Source of the DNA: Dictyostelium firmibasis
Taxonomy: Eukaryota; Evosea; Eumycetozoa; Dictyosteliales; Dictyosteliaceae
NCBI GenBank assembly: GCA_036169595.1
Contig: CM069769.1
Span: 2,340,001-2,404,000 of the forward strand
Reading direction: 5' to 3'
DNA: 64,000 nucleotides
The notes under the pieces: model-generated
Told to the model about the DNA's origin: nothing
The model's input: only the letters and a program-made list of their open reading frames with translations
The model's database searches: none
Part shown: positions 40,827-53,616 of the stretch, piece by piece
Position numbering within the stretch: position 1 is the stretch's first letter
Layout of the letters: each line of letters opens with the position of its first letter
Position numbers and translations under genes: made by a program

Positions 40827-41294
40827 TGTGATAGAACTGGTAACATAATTTATATCAGTTAATTATGTATCAATATGTCGTTTATTATAATCCGTAATCT
40901 CAACGTCAGCTGTGTTCTAGAACATTCTTTTGGATCCTTCTTTACTCGTAATTATATTGAGTCACCGTTTAAGACTCAGTATAAAAAGAAAATAAATTTA
41001 TTTATTTTCGGCAGTCTTTCAGTTTACAATCAAATATAAAATAAATAAATAAAATATAAAAATAAATAAATATAATAAATAAATAAAATATAAAATAAAT
41101 AAATATAAAAATAAATAAATATAAAATAAATAAATATTAAAATTAAATATTAAACTAAAGTAATATTAAGTAATAATAAATAAATAATAAAAATAATTAT
41201 ATAAATATATTCGGACTCATAATTATAATTTGTAATAATAAGTTGACAATATTTAGCCACTTCGTTATAACCACGTTCAACCTCTATTATTACA
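40827..41294 (+). repeat. 5' LTR
   Basis: 468 bases, TGTGATAGAACTGG to CTCTATTATTACA. Includes a likely TATA-type promoter (AGTATAAAAAG near 40977) and a long AAATAAAT-rich part. Confidence 0.88.
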
Positions 41295-41341
41295 TTGGCG
41301 ACATCTACGGTCACCTGTAGTACATTAATTAAATAATTAAT

Positions 41342-41389
<48 letters not shown>

Positions 41390-41842
41390 ATATATATAAT
41401 AATAATAAAAATAAATTTAAATATAATAATTAGTCAATAGAGTAAAAATTATGGAAGGTCTCAATTTTATTATTTTTGATGGCAAAAGAGCCACAGAAAT
41501 AGAGACGATTTTTGAAGTAATCGAAGTCAAGGTAGAAAATATTATTAATTTTAACCACCACTACAACATTTCTTCTACCCCCTGCTGTGTGTTTTTCTGA
41601 AGTAATTTTTGAAAGTGTGGGTGGGGGTAGCTGCGCAAATTTTTTTTTTTTTTTAAATTATTTCAATTTTTTTTTTTCAAAATTTTATTTTTCATATCAT
41701 TCACCTCAAATAAACTACATTATAATATATATTTATTACCTATTTGATAATTTTATTTGTTTACTTTATTTGTTACTTTATAATATATATTTTGTGCCCG
41801 TTTTATTTATTTATTATTTTTTAGAGGTGTTAATTAAATTAG

Positions 41843-43403
41843 TCAATCTAATAAAATTGTATTATTTCGACGCAATCTGAAAAAATGCTCAACATTATTA
41901 CCTTCATTGTTGAATGGAAAGTCAGTAAGTTTTATAATTATTTTTTTATTATCACGTGGATCAATCTTTTCAAAACATACTCTATACCAATAAAAATTAT
42001 GTTTTTGTTTATGTTTAACCATTTGACCTCTATCACCACACAATGATTCAATTTTCACCAATAATTTCTCACCACTGATCAATGTATTAATTTTTTGTTT
42101 ATCCACCCATTCCACCTCTTCATCTTTAATATAGGGAATAATATTATTATTTAGAGTACATTGATACTCAACAAAATCCAATACTTGACTGTATGTATAT
42201 ATTTGGTTAGTTTCTATAATTAATAGACTATTTTATAAATAAATAGTTTATTATAATAACATATGTGGATAATATATATATAGCATAACACTTACTCGAA
42301 TTTCAACAAATATTCAATTTCATTATAGGTTGTGGATAATTTATAACCAACAACAACAGCAGGCCAAAACGAAAATTTAAATTCGTTATTGAATTGGCTA
42401 AGAGCTTTCACAGGCTGACCAACATGATATTTAACATTGATGTTATGGTTTTTCTTCCATGTCAACCTCGCAACCTTGTATAGAGATAAGGTGTTTGCCA
42501 AAACAACATCATCGACCATAGAAGATGATGAATCGACATGTGTCAATCTATTTGGGGACCGTTGAACATGGTCAGATGAGGTGGTAGTTTCTGGTCTTTT
42601 ATTTCTATTGTAAGTAGTAGTTGTTGTTGTAGTAGTAGTAGTAGTAGTAGTATTAGTTGTCAAAGTATTGATATTTGGATTTATATCTGGTATAGGTTGG
42701 TCATCATCATCATAATCAATAATATCAAAACAAATATTTTCATTTTGGTATTCATCATCAGCATCGGCATCGTACACATCTTGAAAACCTAAATCAAGTT
42801 CGTCACCTTCATCATATTGGTCAACAGCAGCAACTATATTTAAACTATATTCACCAATACCAGATCCAAACAAATCTCTGTAGTCAAACATATTATGATT
42901 CAGTTTGTCAGCAGAGTATGAAGTATTTCTTGATGATGGTGTTAGCATACTTTTGTACTCGCCAACGGTATGAGTTACCTTTGTTATATAATTAGATTTG
43001 GTAATTTGTTGTAAACAAGCATCTTCATTATCTCCACCAACTCTATATTTGGTTTTATTCGTACTCCGGGTATATATTATTTTATTTAAGAAGTGCTCTC
43101 CTTCTGTTGCAAAGTTTGCCAGTGCTTCGATACAAATACCCATTTTTCCATACTTTTCAATGAAATAGCCAGTATGACAAATAAGTATGTGTAAGTATGT
43201 AGAAATTACTTCTTTGGTGGTCCAGTTAATATCATAAATTTCCAAAGCTAAATTACCAAATACTGATGCATATTCCAACCATTTAGACTCAGAACATGCT
43301 GTCACACTAGACATCAAACTAATTAATGCATACATCATTTTCCACAATTTTGATACCTGGTTTTGTATTTATTATTTGTAAGTATTAATTTATAAAATAT
43401 GTA

Positions 43404-43488
<85 letters not shown>

Positions 43489-43599
43489 TATTATTTATTA
43501 TTTATTATTTATTATTTATTATTTATTATTTATTATTTATTATTTATTATTTATTATTTATTATTTATTATTTATTATTTATTATTTATTATTTATTTA

Positions 43600-43632
<33 letters not shown>

Positions 43633-45432
43633 GTTATTTATTATTTATTATTATTATTTATTATTTATTATTATTACTATTTATTATTTATTATTTTTAT
43701 TTTTATTTTTTTTTATTTATTACTATTTTTAATTAATTTATTTATTATGGTTCTCCATTATTAAATTTTTTTTACTTACTTTATGTTTATTAGGATTTAA
43801 AGAGTATTTATTTACAATTGCTACCAACTTTTCATACTTGAATAAAATCATAATTAACTCATTATATTTAATTCTAGAGTTTCTGAAATTTGTTGGGAGG
43901 TCAGCAAATGATCCATCAGATGGTTTAAATAGTTTAATTCCACACTCTTCTTTAAGAAAATGTTCCAACTCTCTTCTATACTTTGACTTTCTGGTGATGT
44001 GTGTTGGATCAGGTAGATTAACAATTTCTTCATCAACAATCAATTTAAAAAATTGTTTTATCACGGCCTGTACCATATGTAAAAAATCTGGTACAATTTG
44101 ATCCAATGGAATTGGTAGAATGGGTGACGATCTTTGCCCTTTACATCTTTTGGTAGTTGATGCAGATGCTCCAACAGGAGCATGTTTGTGCATATTATAG
44201 ATGTCTCTAAATGGTCTTTTATGGAATCGATTCATCTCATCTTTTGTAATCTCACACCAAGGGCATCGGTATGTACTCTGTCTTTTCCAAACAGTATACA
44301 ATCCCAGAATATTTATCAAACAAGCCAAATCCAATACTAAAACTAAATCAACATTGTACACTATTCTTTTGAATGTGTGTTTAAATCCATTGAAAACGTT
44401 TTGTAAATCATTATTTTTAACCATGTAGTTTAAGGTTTTAATCAATGGAGCCAACTCTTCTTTCAAAGTTAAAACATCTTCATCTCCTTGGTATATTAAA
44501 AATTGATAAGCGTCATATGGTGATTTACTTTTAGCTACCAATTTTTGTGAATGCACACCTTGCATTGTACCAATTACTTGTTTCACAGTCCCATTATTGG
44601 TCATTCCTGCGCCGTCTATGCCCATATGAATTAAAAAATTTTGTGGTGGATTTTCATTTTCAATCAACATGTTCAACAACTTTCTAATTGAAATGTATCT
44701 ACCCCTATTGGTTGAAATAGATGCTTCTATTAGCTCTTCTAATTCTATTACATTTTTGTATATGTAAGTTTAGTTAATATAAATACAAAAAAAAAGAAAA
44801 AACCAATTACTAATCAATATATTACCTTTTCTACATTCTTTTTTAATGTGATATAATGTGAAATCACTAGATAATTTCATGGTGTTTTGAAAATTTTTCC
44901 ATTTAGAATCAACAATACCATGTATGAGTTTCATACAAGCCACCGTCTTGATTGAAAGATGATCAGTACTAATTCTACTCAAATTATTTGAGATATCTCT
45001 GTTATTTGCATTTACAACCAAATTTGCCGCTTTGTTACATCCTGGACAACGCTCATGTTCCTCAATTTTCAAATCACCATGTGTGTGTCTCACCAATTTG
45101 ATATGTCTTTGCCAATTTGATATAGTCAGACTAGCATTACAATTCCAGTGAATACATTTTTTGATTTGTACCTCTGTTACTTCAGCCTCTTCTTCAACAT
45201 AATCCTCCTCTCGTCTTTGATTTTGAAATTCAATTTCCCTTTGAATTTGAAGTTCACCATCTCTTATAAATCCCATTATTATTTCTTCTTCACTTCTCTG
45301 AACTTGATTGTTTCTTATTTCAGATGGTACAATATATGGTTTTTTAAAATTAATTGGTTGGTTGAAATAGTAACACCCTCCGGTTTTTAGTATTGATAAG
45401 TTCATATTAAAATGACCAATAATCTGGTGCAT
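41843..45432 (-). CDS. transposase, RAG1/CMC-like DDE type
   Basis: Proposed complement of join 41843..42188, 42296..43356, 43780..44744, 44826..45432 (992 residues, uninterrupted). An N-terminal CIHWNCNASLTISNWQRHIK zinc-finger-like motif (about residue 95) probably binds DNA. Then, in order: IHMGIDGAGM (Asp246), a YQGDED...L-x-PLIKTL stretch, VDLVLVLDLACL (Asp335/341), RCPWCEITKDE (Cys363/366), VPDFLHM (His425), GIKLFKPSDGSFADL, LHILICH (His580, 585) and NFATEGEHF (Glu609/611). Asp, Asp, CxxC, His, then H...H...E is the plan of RAG1, Transib and the CMC transposases. A disordered acidic/Thr-rich part follows, then VGQPVKAL...FWPAVVVGYK, which looks like a Tudor/SH3-type barrel. Intron 2 carries the large ATT array (43408-43690). 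Looks whole. Confidence 0.75.
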
Positions 45433-46170
45433 TCGATTTTATTTGTTATATAACCCGGGAAAAAATTAATTTAAAAATAAAAATAAAAATAATTAAAATT
45501 TAAATTAAAAAAATATTTTTTTTATTTTTTTATTTTTTTAGATCTTGCGGAGTTTTGAAAAGCCTTATCAACACTCCAAAATAACCATGTCATAACAGAA
45601 CAACAGGCCCTTTCATTATGATAAGGTATCTTCTTGGGTTATATGAGTGTTTTAGATGTTTTTAATCAATAACTATGAAAAAAAAGTAATAATGTCATTT
45701 TAAATGGTGGTTTTTTTTTTTTTTTTTTTTTTTTTTATGAGTAAAAATTTTTTTTTTTTTTTTTTTATATGTAAATTTTTATTATGTATTAATAATTATT
45801 CAAAAAAAAATTAAATAATAAAATATAAAAAAAATAAATATAAATAGGAAATTGTAAATGGTAAATATTTTTTTTTTTTTTACAAAAATTTCACTCGCAT
45901 ATTCACAAACGGCTTCTTTCATTTGGCAACTGAGAACATATGTAAATTTTTTGATTTCCATCACTCCACTTCAAGATTTCATACATCCCACCTACCACAC
46001 TCTCAAATTTTTTTGAAATAAATTTTTGCTGCTCGTCGGGAATATTTTTTTTTATTTTTTATTTTTTTTTATTTTTTTTTTCATTTCATTTTTTTTGAAA
46101 CTATACAAATAATAACAATATATATAATAACTAGATTATATTTTACAGGTGCATTAGTTCATTTTAAAAT

Positions 46171-46292
46171 ACATTTATATTAATGTATATACAACTTGTA
46201 GATTGACCTATTTTAAAATTTTAAAATAAACAATATTGTATATAAATTTTAAAATAGGTCAATCTACAAGTTATATACATTAATATAAATGT
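46171..46292. repeat. long inverted repeat inside the transposon
   Basis: Arms of about 50 bases (ACATTTATATTAATGTATAT ... GACCTATTTTAAAATTT and its complement, one arm with two extra bases) around a loop of about 20. It lies upstream of the transposase gene, between it and the low-complexity stretch. Confidence 0.8.
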
Positions 46293-46436
46293 ATTTCTTT
46301 TTTTTAAAAAAATTCATACCTACTTAATTTTTAATATATATTCTATTTCTTCATATATAGATGACCATCTGTATCCATAATGGTTGCAGGCCAATATAAT
46401 CTTACTAAAATTTTTGGTAAACAGATGAAGACATTC

Positions 46437-47110
46437 TTAAAGTAGTACCAGTGTTAGATGAAGAAGAAGGTGTATTTCGTGGTGATGAAGAATAGGTAGT
46501 ATTAGTGGTATTGGATGATGAAGCAGGTGTATTAGATGATTGTGATGAAGAAGTAGGTGTATTAGATGATTGTTATGAAGAAGTAGGTGTATTAGATGAT
46601 TGTTATGAAGAAGCAGGTGTATTAGATTGTGGTGATGAAGAAGAGGTAGTAGCAGTAGCAGTAGCAGTAGCAGTAGCAGTAGCAGTAGCAGTAGCAGTAG
46701 CAGTAGCAGTAGCAGTAGCAGTAGCAGTAGCAGTAGCAGTAGCAGTAGCAGTAGCAGTAGCAGTAGCAGTAGCAGTGGTAGGGTAGTGGTGATATTGGAT
46801 GATCTTGATAAAGAGGCAGGTGTATTCAATGGTGGTGATGATGAAGAGGTAGTAGAAGTAGTATTGGTATTATTTAAAGAGAGTTTGTTATTGTGATGAA
46901 GAAGCAGGAGTATTGGATGATCATGATGAAGAAGCAGGAGTATTAGATGGTGGTGGATCAAGAGGTAGTAGCGGTGGTGAAGCAGGAGTAGTGATGATCT
47001 TGATGAAGAAGCAGGATTATTGGAAGGTGATGGATGAAGAGGTAGTAGTAGTAGAAGTGTATTGGTATTATTTAAATCAAATAGATTTCTGAATTCAATA
47101 TTTGACGATC
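46437..47110 (-). pseudogene. low-complexity Ser/Thr/Pro coding remnant with hexamer repeat
   Basis: On the minus strand one frame reads NTPASSSNTTNTTYSSSPR and similar, and another SLNNTNTTSTTSSSSPP, both typical disordered Dictyostelium sequence, but stops and frame changes interrupt them. 46648-46774 is a (GCAGTA)n array of about 21 units, unusually GC-rich for this genome. Imperfect 30-base units around GATGAAGAAGCAGGTGTATT flank it. Either a decayed third gene of the transposon or expanded simple repeats. I see no start or splice that makes a full protein. Confidence 0.45.
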
Positions 47111-47541
47111 CAAAAACGTATTAATGGGTGATGCATCATCATCATTATCATATGAATAATTGTGATCTTCACTAACCATTTACAAATTGATCATCAATTT
47201 TCTCAAAACCAATATCAAAATCAAAGTCAAAATAATAATAATCAAAACTAAAAACAATCCAGATGATAACCAGGATGTCTACGAAGACGAAGACGATGAA
47301 ACTATTTGATCAAATAGTTCCTCAACCCAATCTTCCATCTCTGTTTCATCGTCTTTATTGTATCAATATTTCAAATATAATACCATTTGTCAAAAAAAAT
47401 AAAAAAATAAAAAAATAAAAAAAAATAAAAAAAATAAAAAATAAAAAAAAATAAAAAAAAATAAAAAAAAATAAAAAAATTAATTTTAATTAAAATATGA
47501 GATTTTTATTTTTAAAAAACACAAATTTTAATTTTTTCGAT

Positions 47542-48066
47542 TTAAATTTTATATTTTTTAATTAAATTATGCCGTTTCGCGTGCAGATCGATTATTTTTG
47601 CTGAACAAACCAATGCACCAAAGACACCATAAAAATACTTTATTTCGGAGGGCACATGACAATTTGGTGTACATCTGTTATGGTGCAATTCCAAACGTTT
47701 TTCATGTTTATTCCTGTATCCAGTGTCTGAAAATCTGCTGTTGCAAGGGTCGTGTCTGCAAGTATACCAGTTTGGTATTTGGTTAGATATTGGATGTTGA
47801 TTTACAGGTACATTTACACCAACCACATTGGACAAACGTGGTGTAGCTGTGTATGAAATTTCAGGTTCAAACTCAACATTGCTTGGCTGAGTACTATTCA
47901 AACTTGGTTGAGAATTGGTTGGAACATCATCATCCTCATCAGCAGCAATCAATAAATTATTTAATCCACCACCACCACCACCACTACTACTACTACTATT
48001 TCCAACAGAGCAATAATAATTCAACAATATAATTAAAAAAATTAAATAATTTATTTTCATTTTCAT
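47542..48066 (-). CDS. small zinc-finger-like protein of the transposon
   Basis: 174 residues in one frame. The start, MKMKINYLIFLIILLNYYCS, looks like a signal peptide, which is odd for a DNA-binding protein; the true start may lie further in. Ser and Gly runs, an acidic patch (AADEDDD), then YTCRHDPCNSRFSDTGYRNK followed by HEKRLELHHNRC, a C-x4-C...H-x-H-type finger whose spacing resembles the finger at the N-terminus of the transposase. It sits at the opposite end of the element, on the same strand. CACTA elements often code such a second end-binding protein; that role is inference. Confidence 0.5.
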   Translation of the reverse strand: MKMKINYLIFLIILLNYYCSVGNSSSSSGGGGGGLNNLLIAADEDDDVPTNSQPSLNSTQPSNVEFEPEISYTATPRLSNVVGVNVPVNQHPISNQIPNWYTCRHDPCNSRFSDTGYRNKHEKRLELHHNRCTPNCHVPSEIKYFYGVFGALVCSAKIIDLHAKRHNLIKKYKI

Positions 48067-48443
48067 TAAAATAATAACAATAATATTACAAAAAAAAAAA
48101 AAATCACAAAAAAAAAAAAAAAAAAAAAAAAATAACCAACAAAAAAAAAAAAAAAAAATTAAAATTTTAAAAAAAAATATAAATAAAAATTAATTATTAA
48201 CCGATTCAGTTTGTGATAAATCTTTACACGGACTGAATCGGTTGAAAAATACACTTTTATTTGAATTTTTAGGAGACGGCAGGTTGCGAAGATTTCAGGT
48301 GGTATATGTCGAAATCTTCCCACAATTTTTATATGAGAAACTTTTTTTTTTTTTCAAAGTTAATTTTTACATATTAAATTTTTATGAGACCCCACTTAAC
48401 ACTTGTAAAAACCCACGGCAGGGGGAGAAGATAATTTGCAGTG

Positions 48444-49181
48444 ACTTGCAACTTAAAGTGGTATTCATCGATTATTTCAGAGATGAAGCTTTAAGAGATG
48501 CATTGGATTTGTGCCGTCACCAGCAATTGACGTATCCAATCGCGAAAACAAATTTAATTGGCCGTTATTCGAAAATTAAAGATAATCCGTTGATGGAATT
48601 GCAGAATATCAAAGATACGAAATTTAAAACTTTCAGTAAATATATTCATGGATTAGGTAGGTTGTACCATAGTATCATTCCAGTTGTTGATTTATCTTTG
48701 ATGTTTACATATTTAACAAATGGAATTTCAGATCCACATGTGAAGAATCAAATTTTGAACAAAAATTCAAAAGAGTCAATTGAAGAAATGATCAGGGACG
48801 CGATAGAAATTGGAGCTAACTACTATAAAACATATAAAGTTCCATTCTTTGCAAGTACTAGCTTCTTTGAAGTAAATCAGAATATTCCACTTCAATTGCC
48901 TCCACCAATAAATCAAGAAATTAATAATATCCAAAATTACTATAATGAAGATGAGAATTACAATAATTTTCAAAATTATTATGGGGATAATGATAATTAT
49001 CAAGAGATGATAGCAATTAATAAAGAAAAAAAAATTAATAATAGTCCAAATTTTAAAAATAATACAAATTTTAATAATAATAGATATAATAGATATAATA
49101 ATTTTAATAATAGAAATAATAATAATTTTAATAATAATAATAATTTTAATAATAATAATAATTTTAATAATAATAATAATT

Positions 49182-49216
<35 letters not shown>

Positions 49217-52200
49217 TTTAATAATAATAATAATAATAATAATTTTAATAATAATAATTTTAATAATAATAACAGATATAATAATAATAATAATAATTTT
49301 AAAAATAGAAATAATAGAAATTTTAGAAACCAGAATCAGGAGTCAGGAAGAAATTGTGCAATCTGTGGATACACCAACCACTCAGCAGAAGACTGCAGAG
49401 TCGAAATCAATTTAATATCTAGTATAAGTAATGAGAAGACTATTTCAGGAAGTTTGGTTGCTATTCTAGAGTTAAATAAAGAAAAAACTAGATGTTTAAT
49501 TGACACAGGATCTTCAGTCACCGTAATTCATAAAGAGTTGGCAGAGAAATTAAATTGCAATATTACAAAAATTGAAAAAAGTCTTGGTGCTGCCAACAAC
49601 ACATCAATCAAAGTGATCGGGAAAACTTCTTTAAGCTTGGCCGTTTCCAGAAATAGTAGAGCTTTGGTCATCAATAACGTCTTGGTATCTGATGAAATTA
49701 AACTTAAATGTGTCATTGGTATTGACTTATTATTAGAAGCTAACTCTTGTATTAACCTTCAAACCAATACTTTATCTATTAACGGATCATTTACAAAACT
49801 TCTTCCATTCCATGGTCTTCCGATCATCATTAAAGAATCAACAAACACAATTTCCGAAGTTAAGGTATTCAATGAACTTCAGTTTGATTACCCAATGAAT
49901 TCTACTGAATTGGATTCAGTATTCAATCTAGATAATCATCATTTGAATTCAATTGTTGAAGTTATAAATCCAACTAAGGAAGTAATATCTAGTTCGTCCA
50001 GTTCCGGTGACATTTCGGATGATGTTCACAAGGAATCAGTTAAAACTTTAGTAAATAAATGGAATAAAGTATTCACTGATAATTTAACGAACCCAGGAAA
50101 AATTTCAAATGTCATCCATGAAATAAGATTGAATACTTCAATTGTAGATTTTTATCCTTATCCAGTAAAGTTCAGTGAGGATCAAAAGAATTTTTTGGAT
50201 AGTCACATAAAAGAGTTGATTAAAAATAAAATTATCAGAGAATCGAATTCTCCAGTAGCGTCAAGTATTGTATTAGTTCCGAAAGCAGAGTCTTTTAGAA
50301 TGTGTGTTAATTATAGTAAATTAAATAATATAACCATCAAAGATCGATTTCCAATTCCCAACATTGATGATCTTTGGTCAAATTTGAAAGATGCAAAAAT
50401 TTTTTCAAAGTTGGATATGGTCTCTGGTTATCATCAAATTCCTATTAAAGAAGAATCTAAATATTTAACGGCATTCGCCACTCCGTTCGGTCTATTTGAA
50501 TTTAATGTGATGCCATTCGGATTAACGAATGCACCCGCAACATTTCAGAGGGTGATGAATAAGATTTTTAGCTCTTTTATTAGAAAATTTGTTTTAGTAT
50601 ATTTCGATGATATTTTAATTTTTTCTGAAAATAGTCAAGTCCATCAACAACACTTGGATAGTGTATTTGAAATATTAAATCAACACAAATTAAAAATAAA
50701 ATTAAAAAAATGTCAATTTTTCAGATCTCAAATTAAATTTTTAGGTCACTTGGTCTCAGATAAAGGAGTAGAGATAGATTACTCACGAATAGATCCTTTA
50801 TTAAAATTAGTCAATCCATCTAATATTAAGGAATTACAGAGATTATTAGGAACGATCAATTATTTTAGAAGACATGTCAAGAATTTATCTTCAAAACTAG
50901 TACCTATATATTCTCTAATTAAAAAAGAAAATAAATTTAGTTGGTCAGACAGTCATAGGCAAATCATTATTCAAATAATCAATGATTTAGTTAATCAAAA
51001 AGTGATACTATCTTATCCGAATCCAGCACAAGATTATATTTTAGAAACCGATGCTAGTGACATTGGAATTGGTTCAGTACTCAAACAAAATGATAAAATC
51101 ATTTCCTTTTTCTCAAGATCAATCAAAGGTGCTGAAGTTAACTTTTCAACCTCTGAAAAAGAATGTCTATCAGTGGTGGATTCTTTGGATTATTTTCATC
51201 ATATTATTGGGTCTTCAAAGGTGGAGGTCATAACCGATAATATAGCAATAACAGTTTTAAAAACTGGTAATGGTAAAATTAAAAATAAGAGATTAATAAA
51301 TTGGAATGTCAAATTAGGTGCATACAACATTAAATTCACCTACAGATCTGGTAAGATGAATACAGTTGCAGATGCGCTTTCAAGATGCCCATTGACAGCA
51401 TTAATTAATAATATTGATCAACCTGAAATTGATATTATGGATATTGGTAATTTTAAAATTGAACAAGCAGCTGATCCAAAATTAAAATTAATTATTAATC
51501 ATTTATTAGAAAAGAAACAAGAATTGGATAAAGATGTAGCATCCAGATTAACGGCAGAAGAACCTTTTTATACTTTATTTAATGGTGTTTTATATCGTTT
51601 AATCGTCAATCCTAACAAATTTTTTAAAAAACTTCAAGTTGTTGCAAGATGTGTGGTTGTTCCAAACTCTTTAGTTAACCAAGTAATAGAAATTTTTCAT
51701 GATGATTCTTTAACAGGCGGTCACTTAGGTTATCAAAAAACATTTGAAAAAATTTCTAGGAGATTTTATTGGAAAAATATGTTTTTAGACGTTAGAACCT
51801 ACATTAATAATTGTGATAGTTGTCAAAAAACTAAAACAAGCCCGCATGATGTATTGAGAAGTCCAGTTGGTACCATAGTTGTTTCGGAGCCGTTCGAAGT
51901 TGTAGCTGTCGATTTTATTGGTCCAATCAGAGAAAGAACATCCAGGAACAATGCATACATTTTAGTTTTCTCGGACTACTTGACTAAATGGGTAGAAGCA
52001 GTCGCCACAGAAGACTGTTCAGCTGAAACCACTGCTATACATTATTATAATTTAATTATTGCTCGCCATGGTGCTCCTAAGAAACTTCTATCGGATTTAG
52101 GAACTTCGTTCATCAATAAGGTTATTAGTAATTTAAACGAAGTCTTCAAAATTAAGAAAGCCAACACGACTCCATATCACCCTCAAACTGATGGACTAGT

Positions 52201-53005
52201 GGAAAGATTTAACAAAACATTAGTGTTAATGATTAAATCTTATGTTTCGGATTATCATGTTTTCTGGGATTTATACTTAGATTCATGTTTATTTGCTTAT
52301 AGAATGGCTATACAAACGTCCACAGGCTTTACTCCGTACAGGTTACTTTATGGTAGAGAACCCACCGTTCCTTTGGATTTGTTAGTTGATCAAAATATAT
52401 TCCCAGCCAGAACAGTAACAGGCGAAGCATATGGTGATAGAGTTAAAAGAATGGTTAAAAGATCTATTAGTACCGCCAAAAGAAATATTTCCGAATCAAT
52501 TGAAAAAAGAAGTAAGAAAAAATACAATATTTCAAAGATTACTATTGGTTGTTTTATACTCCTTAAAAACAGATCAGCTCCAGAAGATTTACAAACATAT
52601 AAATTTCTTCCAAAATGGGTAGGCCCATTTAAAGTTATTGAGATACTCTCTCCACAGGTTGTCAGAATTGAATTACCGTTAAATTCAAGAGCTTCACCAT
52701 TACAAAATGTAGATAATTGTAAAGTCTATATTCATAGATTAGCCAAATTAATTCTCAATATTCCACCCATCATTCAAAAAAGAGTTCCAACTTTACCAAC
52801 GCCTTCGCCGGTAGTTAATTCTCAACCTTCGTCTAGAGAAGCCAGAACTGATAACAACATTCCAAATAACTATATCCCTCGAACTCCGGTCCAAAATGCT
52901 GGTAGAATCCAAGAAACAACTCAAGATAGACAGTTACCAAATTATGTCCAAGGTCCAGCAGTTGCCACTTTACCGGTTGTGCTCCCAAGAAGAAACCCAG
53001 CATAA
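48444..53005 (+). CDS. Gag-Pol of the LTR retrotransposon (part right of the nested insertion)
   Basis: The frame is open to the stop at 53005. Order: Gag with an Asn/Phe run (about 49050-49310), a CCHC knuckle (CAICGYTNHSAEDC, about 49357), an aspartic protease (CLIDTGSSVTV, about 49493), reverse transcriptase with YFDDILIF (about 50600), RNase H (about 51040-51400), integrase with an HHCC finger (GGHLGYQKTFEKISRR ... CDSCQ, about 51715-51830) and the D, D, E core (AVDFIGPI, SDLGTSF, HPQTDGLVERF; 51905-52215). RT-RNase H-IN order is Ty3/gypsy. A GPFKVIEI-type domain follows integrase; no chromodomain is seen. Gag and Pol share one frame here. Confidence 0.9.
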
Positions 53006-53024
53006 AATTTAAAGGAGGGGTGAA

Positions 53025-53492
53025 TGTGATAGAACTGGTAACATAATTTATATCAGTTAATTATGTATCAATATGTCGTTTATTATAATCCGTAATCTCA
53101 ACGTCAGCTGTGTTCTAGAACATTCTTTTGGATCCTTCTTTACTCGTAATTATATTGAGTCACCGTTTAAGACTCAGTATAAAAAGAAAATAAATTTATT
53201 TATTTTCGGCAGTCTTTCAGTTTACAATCAAATATAAAATAAATAAATAAAATATAAAAATAAATAAATATAATAAATAAATAAAATATAAAATAAATAA
53301 ATATAAAAATAAATAAATATAAAATAAATAAATATTAAAATTAAATATTAAACTAAAGTAATATTAAGTAATAATAAATAAATAATAAAAATAATTATAT
53401 AAATATATTCGGACTCATAATTATAATTTGTAATAATAAGTTGACAATATTTAGCCACTTCGTTATAACCACGTTCAACCTCTATTATTACA
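53025..53492 (+). repeat. 3' LTR
   Basis: 468 bases, no difference from the 5' LTR found by eye. Followed by AAAG (target-site duplication) and, 16 bases on, the tRNA. Confidence 0.9.
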
Positions 53493-53508: not shown

Positions 53509-53582
53509 GTTCGGATGGTGTAGTCGGTTATCACGAATCCTTAACACGGATTAGGTCGTGGGTTCGATTCCCGCTCTGAATA
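53509..53582 (+). tRNA. tRNA-Val(AAC), second copy
   Basis: Identical in sequence to 18706-18779, with the same AAATATAAAAGA lead. The LTR retrotransposon ends 16 bases upstream. Confidence 0.93.
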
Positions 53583-53616
53583 CAACTCATTTTCCGAAAC
53601 CAGCCATTAGATCATG

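Follow-up and report, generated by a model that had tools for sequence, protein, structure and literature searches.

The locus and its transposon

The genome of Dictyostelium firmibasis carries, at positions 41559-48443 of the 64,000-base stretch of DNA analysed here ('the window', C5:2340001-2404000), a minus-strand copy of a DNA transposon family that we term family A. The copy is 6,885 bp long, including a foreign insert of 2,277 bp, and it sits inside a retrotransposon of the Ty3/gypsy kind. With good confidence, we read family A as a young cut-and-paste DNA transposon of the RAG1/Transib-CACTA clade (CMCT, for CACTA-Mirage-Chapaev-Transib/RAG1), the transposase of which would combine proposed Cys/His fingers, a DDE (Asp, Asp, Glu) catalytic core and a chromatin-tethering tail. 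The genome searched for relatives comprises 31,455,843 bases in 12 contigs. Published work is cited by PMC number.

The two ends of the copy are inverted repeats of each other, though imperfect ones (CACTACAAC.../CACTGCAAA...), as the initial annotation had proposed. The left repeat, CACTACAAC..., occupies 41559-41596 on the plus strand, and the right repeat, CACTGCAAATTATC... when read on the minus strand, occupies 48406-48443. Over the first 38 bases, the gapped score of the pair is equalled by one in 5,000 random inverted pairs taken from the element, and the two ends are found together again at other loci. Searched against the genome, the left 692 bases yielded at least 43 matches, at least 33 of which cover the full query, terminal repeat included, at 99-100% identity; these counts are lower bounds, 40 of 124 candidates having been scored. 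The right 239 bases yielded 78 matches, among which the right repeat recurs, and 38 of these cover at least 236 bases. A subterminal inverted repeat lies near the right end (window 48173-48270; AACCGATTCAGT...ACTGAATCGGTT), and an opposite-strand match accompanies 38 of 40 right-end matches. Ends could be paired for 25 copies. The usual length is 4.4-4.9 kb (22 copies); two are of about 6.87 kb (the window copy and C1:4743022-4749889), and one, C2:1326076, is 9.2 kb long and has an element of a related family, B, inside it.

The window copy had been described as whole-looking, and this description fails, on its unusual length and on its content. Positions 45376-47652 are an internally deleted transposon of another related family, D, splitting exon 1 of the transposase gene; we identify it as such because it has the ends CCCTCCG/CGGAGGG and, close to each of them, matches loci of family D at 92-99% (blastn). 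This insert, 2,277 bases, is without a target duplication, and window bases 45375 and 47653 directly abut in uninterrupted copies, the junction string being present in nine fetched loci (eight copies). Because the deleted family-D element landed in exon 1, the window copy has no continuous transposase; activity of its own is not supported, and it could move only in trans. The second 6.87-kb copy raised the idea that the composite of 6.9 kb had moved as a unit. That idea was rejected: the family-D insert in the C1 copy lies 113 bp off, and the two inserts are therefore independent. Within the window insert, at 46160-46300, reading by eye shows a palindrome that is nearly perfect, its arms being some 48 bases long.

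Family A as a whole is young and has been active recently, a conclusion supported by the near-identity of its copies. Exon 2 differs from that of the window at 0-6 of 963 bases (26 loci measured, window copy included), its full open reading frame (ORF) is kept in 29 of 30 fetched loci, and in 25 of the 30 exon 1 is open all the way between the Met chosen as start and its splice donor. The earlier suggestion that the element is perhaps still active therefore suits the family's recent past, but not this copy by itself.

Insertion sites and target duplications

Flanks of the 25 paired family-A insertions were compared, and 11 had a candidate empty site. Two candidates in simple repeats and one partial alignment were dropped; the eight unambiguous sites, plus C2:1326076 by way of a later locus, make nine, and 16 of the 25 insertions are without a measured duplication. 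At all nine sites the insertion is clean. The duplication is 2 bp at four of them (the window, C1:4821376, C2:5065450 and C2:1326076), 1 bp at four (C6:143305, C3:4887850, C2:4953292 and C6:95350), and 0 bp at one (C6:1467150). In the window the duplicated dinucleotide is AC, at 41557-41558 and 48444-48445, by comparison with an uninterrupted long terminal repeat (LTR) element at locus L098; in our own reading of the sequence, removing the transposon with this duplication restores the gag frame of the host LTR element. The empty sites ruled out our initial view, in which 2 bp would be duplicated at every copy. The family-B insertion C5:2182506 has 2 bp at its empty site, and the flanks of two more family-B copies fit 2 and 3 bp if, as we read them, the reverse-transcriptase frame is kept; family-D inserts have 0 bp in both cases available. 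So short and variable a stagger is unusual for a DDE transposase, and repair following strand transfer is an alternative.

The host element spans 40827-53492 of the window and belongs to the Ty3/gypsy group (Pfam). Its two LTRs, at 40827-41294 and 53025-53492 on the plus strand, are 468 bp long and identical, which bears out the earlier statement that the transposon is nested in a young LTR element. The host is flanked by a duplication of 4 bp, AAAG. Its end is 16 bp from a tRNA-Val gene (53509-53583), on the upstream side of that gene, a position like that described for DGLT-A elements (PMC5006619).

Gene structure and protein

The transposase gene lies on the minus strand as an open path of four exons, encoding 998-1005 residues in the window copy, depending on acceptor choice, and about 1,124 residues in the uninterrupted family-A copy on C1. 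A path of 992 residues had been proposed at the outset; its four-exon plan stands, but its first residues derive from the family-D insert. It is because this insert splits exon 1 that the annotation arrived at such an N-terminus and that the window has a separate C2H2-like ORF (47542-48189); in the uninterrupted copy L009 the two belong to one exon.

The 5' part of exon 1 (47653-48066), with the first proposed Cys/His finger region, is severed by the insert from the 3' part (44826-45375), with the second. The parts are continuous, as a single ORF, in L009 and in RB653_004965, a hypothetical C2H2-type protein of 322 residues in the public D. firmibasis genome that corresponds to the entire exon 1 of a C1 copy of family A. 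Exon 2 (43780-44744) supplies both candidate catalytic Asp residues, a CxxC motif and a His; exon 3 (42296-43356), an HxxxxH motif, a Glu, an acidic/Thr-rich linker and the first of two probable Tudor-like domains; and exon 4 (41843-42227), the second of these and the stop codon. The first candidate catalytic Asp (in IDGAG) is encoded by 44614-44616 and the second (in DLA) by 44329-44331, and both are invariant in four families. The CPWC zinc motif lies at 44254-44265, HILICH (the HxxxxH motif) at 43174-43191, and the candidate catalytic Glu, in ATEGEH, at 43102-43104; the Glu at 43126-43128 is likewise invariant.

Four related families

A protein search of the D. firmibasis genome with exon 2 gave 74 matches, which, apart from a few short fragments, fall into four families: A (94-100% identity), B (55-56%), C (27-29%) and D (26-27%). 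Family counts in what follows leave out partial family-A matches, the partial family-D-like match C2:4920158, and five short ones (C4:1497071, C3:4817080, C5:1849206, C1:9041333 and C7:98464). The first of these five (L056:2548-3003), a single diverged exon-2 match lying outside the DIRS1 clusters described below and having a CxxC-like motif, may be an ancient relic, or else a gene that has been domesticated. In an alignment of the core, identity to A is 52% for B, 28% for C and 26% for D, and ten residues are invariant in all four: D157, D252, C274, C277, H336, H491, H496, E512, E520 and H523. Residues in the initial annotation are numbered 89 higher, and its choices Asp246, Asp341, C363/C366, H425, H580 and H585 are among these ten. 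Asp335 and Glu611, which it had also put forward as catalytic, are not conserved and are rejected; the conserved Glu residues, in the same numbering, are 601 and 609.

This conservation also tells against the most sceptical account, in which the open path would be an artefact of low-complexity sequence or a gene of the host. The genome is AT-rich with long simple repeats, and exon 1 of one copy has after all been annotated as hypothetical protein RB653_004965, but dozens of near-identical copies with common ends, and residues conserved across families, speak against that account and the empty sites refute it. Its probability is negligible.

The ends of the families differ. Those of family B (CACTACAAAC.../...GCAGTG) are like those of family A. 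Those of family D are CCCTCCG, and CCCTCCG occurs at one likely, putative end of one family C copy.

Relationship to RAG1 and the CMCT clade

Members of the CMCT clade have D, D and E residues, the interval from the second D to the last E containing C(2)C and H(3-4)H, mostly 5'-CA..TG-3' termini, and target duplications of 2-5 bp (PMC12730594). The residue pattern is present in all four families, and the ends of A and B fit CA..TG. For similarity, a profile of families A-D, built without RAG1, was run against 177,635 distinct PDB sequences, and matches up to an expectation (E) value of 10 were kept. Five chains matched, of which the top four are of RAG1 type: RAG1 itself (3jbw, E 5.5e-5 as a whole-sequence value), two RAG1-MBP chimeras (1.8e-4 each), and RAG1L (6b40, 0.0033). 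The fifth is unrelated (E 0.7). No Transib chain was among these matches; the PDB contains one. In the RAG1 alignment, CPWC lies opposite CTLC and HxxxxH opposite YLH...H, the second half of the core being covered and the two Asp residues falling outside. Against the full profile the RAG1 fragment reaches 26.8 bits, against A plus B 16.7, and against A 11.5 (E 0.67); the maximum among 1,000 shuffled RAG1 fragments was 8.9 bits with the full profile. The initial annotation's 'RAG1/CMC-like transposase' is thereby upheld, as is, from the identity of the host, its placement among the Amoebozoa. The comparison supports reading families A-D as putative DDE transposases of the CMCT clade; the sequences compared were PDB chains only, so the assignment is to the clade and not to a sub-lineage within it. 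Families C and D are linked to RAG1 through A and B, because neither reaches it alone.

An ordinary CACTA/EnSpm element would account for the left end (CACTACAAC), for a DDE core with CxxC and HxxxxH, and for a transposase gene with introns. The right end, CACTGCAA, does not agree with it, nor do the CCCTCCG ends of family D. The 3-bp duplication of EnSpm (PMC12730594) was found at 0 of the 9 family-A empty sites, although 3 bp would be compatible with the sequences flanking one A copy (C1:4749889) and one B copy. Single-sequence Pfam scans of the four core proteins (as single sequences, weak evidence) gave no transposase match, and in particular no recognisable EnSpm transposase domain. We consider this explanation improbable.

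A different proposal is that these elements are the D. firmibasis versions of DDT or Thug of D. discoideum, so that only the superfamily assignment would be new. The host genus fits, and the transposases of DDT, which makes up 0.9% of the D. discoideum genome, and of Thug have been described as without significant similarity to known ones (PMC5633606). Against it, searches of a database of 5.8 billion proteins, NCBI and UniRef included, gave one D. firmibasis protein only, a weak argument given their word filter and length limits. In one alignment search RB653_004965 was the single relative among 6,660 candidates, in a second there was none among 7,941, and a single-sequence search found none among 7,991 scored candidates. 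Elsewhere, a single-sequence PDB search returned unrelated transporters only (E 0.045 or worse), and 81 pattern stretches from viral contigs included no relatives. The D. firmibasis genome was annotated with D. discoideum Repbase entries (PMC11193728), yet exon 1 of one copy stands there as a hypothetical protein. We regard identity with DDT or Thug as possible, and somewhat doubtful.

The C-terminal tail

Beyond the acidic/Thr-rich linker, two short stretches complete the protein in each of the four families. The first, at 42298-42483 in the window, is probably a Tudor/SH3-like domain: its pattern, with invariant aromatic residues W40, Y47 and Y58, is common to families B-D also, and its family C counterpart weakly resembles Tudor_5 and Agenet (Pfam). 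The second stretch, 41846-42217, is only loosely alike among the families and probably contains another such domain, as suggested by a fold search with its counterpart in family C, the tail of which is uninterrupted in L116. In that search, run with Foldseek against the PDB from a weak AlphaFold model of the family C tail, 32 of the 50 listed matches were Tudor, chromo, PWWP or Agenet domains, among them those of PAPI, PcrA/UvrD, UHRF1, SETDB1, TDRD3 and ADCP1, some repeated. On this modelling, we think it probable that the C-terminus is a tandem Tudor-like module, new here. Among the open-licence papers listed, a part of those that matched, none describes by title and start of abstract a transposase with a Tudor domain of this sort.

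A number of results weigh against the CMCT assignment and the Tudor-like tail. For RAG1 3jbw, the best single stretch reaches only E 0.0032. Among single-family profiles A alone reaches RAG1, and does so weakly (11.5 bits, E 0.67), while B (1.1 bits), D (1.7), C (-2.4) and C plus D together (-0.2) do not. No Pfam family matches the transposase core up to E 10. The AlphaFold model of the core (mean predicted local distance difference test score, pLDDT, 48; predicted template-modelling score, pTM, 0.31) is too poor for active-site geometry, and the 50 listed matches of a fold search with it were all unrelated proteins. The ends of family D are not CA..TG, and the family-A duplications, at 0-2 bp, are mostly below the 2-5 bp of the clade. 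As for the tail, the Pfam matches, Tudor_5 at E 0.016 and Agenet at E 0.074, are below the cut-off and concern one of five tail pieces (that of family C), the other four having no Tudor-type match; the pLDDT of the tail model is 39 overall and 55-67 over the strands (residues 121-160); the Foldseek matches have probabilities of 0.33-1.00 and E values of 0.05-0.33, none below 0.05; and a sequence profile of the second domain finds no Tudor protein in the PDB.

Genomic distribution

Copies of these families are far from evenly spread. We delimited DIRS1 clusters as the ranges of 101 matches to DIRS1-type recombinase (E 1e-10), padded by 60 kb and with the length of C11 taken as 20 kb; the matches lie in the middle of C1, at one end each of C2-C6, and on C7 and C11. 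Within these clusters, which make up 5.0% of the genome, lie 30 of the 33 A copies, 7 of 11 B, 6 of 6 C and 13 of 13 D. The seven A and B copies outside them are all inside another mobile element. For the window copy and the A copy at C6:1467150, empty sites are found in Ty3/gypsy elements, and for the B copy at C5:2182506, in another Ty3/gypsy element. The flanks of two further B copies match adjoining parts of reverse transcriptase, as residues 703-757 and 758-800 of an LTR-element protein at C5:736839, and residues 722-803 and 800-848 at C5:3416309. The empty site of the A copy at C2:1326076 lies in a family of 58 matches, many with ORFs of 1,100-1,250 residues, which on these lengths and by eye resembles non-LTR retrotransposons; its only Pfam matches, to Forkhead and DUF3151, are below threshold. 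The seventh is the B copy at C2:1330788, which lies within that A copy and splits its exon 2.

Such clustering need not reflect targeting. In a compact haploid genome, selection against genic insertions could produce it, gene density being 70.6% (PMC11193728) and a landing in another transposon presumably harmless. Roughly 30% of the genome is non-genic, however, and still all seven A and B copies outside the clusters are within mobile elements. Nor are the DIRS1 clusters a sink for every element, since Ty3/gypsy elements lie almost entirely outside them (one of 15 Ty3/gypsy reverse-transcriptase matches is inside, 14 outside). Selection is a serious competitor of Tudor-like targeting, if one that falls a little short of being the likely cause.

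Proposed mechanism and significance

If family A is a CMCT transposon with a reader tail, its mode of action might be as follows. The N-terminal Cys/His fingers would most likely bind the CACTRCAA ends; the core, predicted to have an RNase-H fold and to use DDE chemistry with a zinc site formed by CxxC and HxxxxH, would excise the element and insert it with a short, variable stagger; and the C-terminal tandem Tudor-like module could tether the complex to the chromatin of other transposons. Tethering of this sort would lead copies to collect where they are observed, in DIRS1 clusters and inside retrotransposons. It has a precedent in Dictyostelium, where the Skipper elements found at centromeres have chromodomains (PMC5006619). 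Whether the four families amount to a new superfamily-level CMCT lineage in dictyostelids, marked by a tandem Tudor reader in cis, a short variable stagger, and homing to transposon heterochromatin and centromere clusters, is a bolder proposition, which we advance tentatively. Among the open-licence papers listed, a part of those that matched, we found by title and start of abstract no account of these elements under Dictyostelium CACTA, EnSpm, DDT or Thug, or under RAG1 or Transib in Amoebozoa.

The profile evidence directly extends the clade of RAG1-like transposases into the Amoebozoa, and it may allow a classification of those DNA transposons of dictyostelids that have been said to resemble no known transposase. 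The probable reader tail, taken with the bias toward other transposons, furnishes a model, open to experiment, for the persistence of a DNA transposon where the genome is haploid and dense with genes; the host is a dictyostelid that has tractable close relatives. The variable stagger of 0-2 bp is a mechanistic oddity among DDE transposases.

Comparison with known systems

With RAG1 and ProtoRAG (RAG1L), family A shares the CxxC motif, a conserved Leu-His, the HxxxxH motif and the Glu region, over about 250 residues, together with ends of the CAC..GTG type. RAG1, which makes the cuts in human antibody genes, relies on the PHD finger of RAG2. In the family A element, by contrast, no second, RAG2-like gene was noticed, and the protein has proposed Cys/His fingers and a probable Tudor-like tail instead. 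The target duplication of RAG and Transib elements is 5 bp; the duplications of family A are shorter than either, at 0-2 bp, and none of 5 bp was seen. With Transib the shared feature is the order of the catalytic and zinc-binding residues, as given for the clade (PMC12730594). EnSpm/CACTA, Plavaka, ESTA, Lanisha, Mirage and Chapaev, the other CMCT groups (Kojima 2025, PMC12730594), likewise have a DDE core containing the C(2)C and H(3-4)H motifs, and CA..TG ends like those of A and B; family A differs from them in its duplications of 0-2 bp and in a sequence too distant for Pfam.

Nearer to the host, Tdd-4/5 (Ginger), DDT and Thug of D. discoideum are multi-copy DNA transposons of the same host group, but Tdd-4/5 have a transposase resembling Gypsy integrase (PMC2836005). 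The Skipper chromoviruses of Dictyostelium offer a parallel: they gather in centromeric clusters and have a C-terminal chromodomain (PMC5006619). Skipper elements are retrotransposons, whereas family A is a DNA transposon, and where they have a chromodomain it probably has a Tudor-like module.

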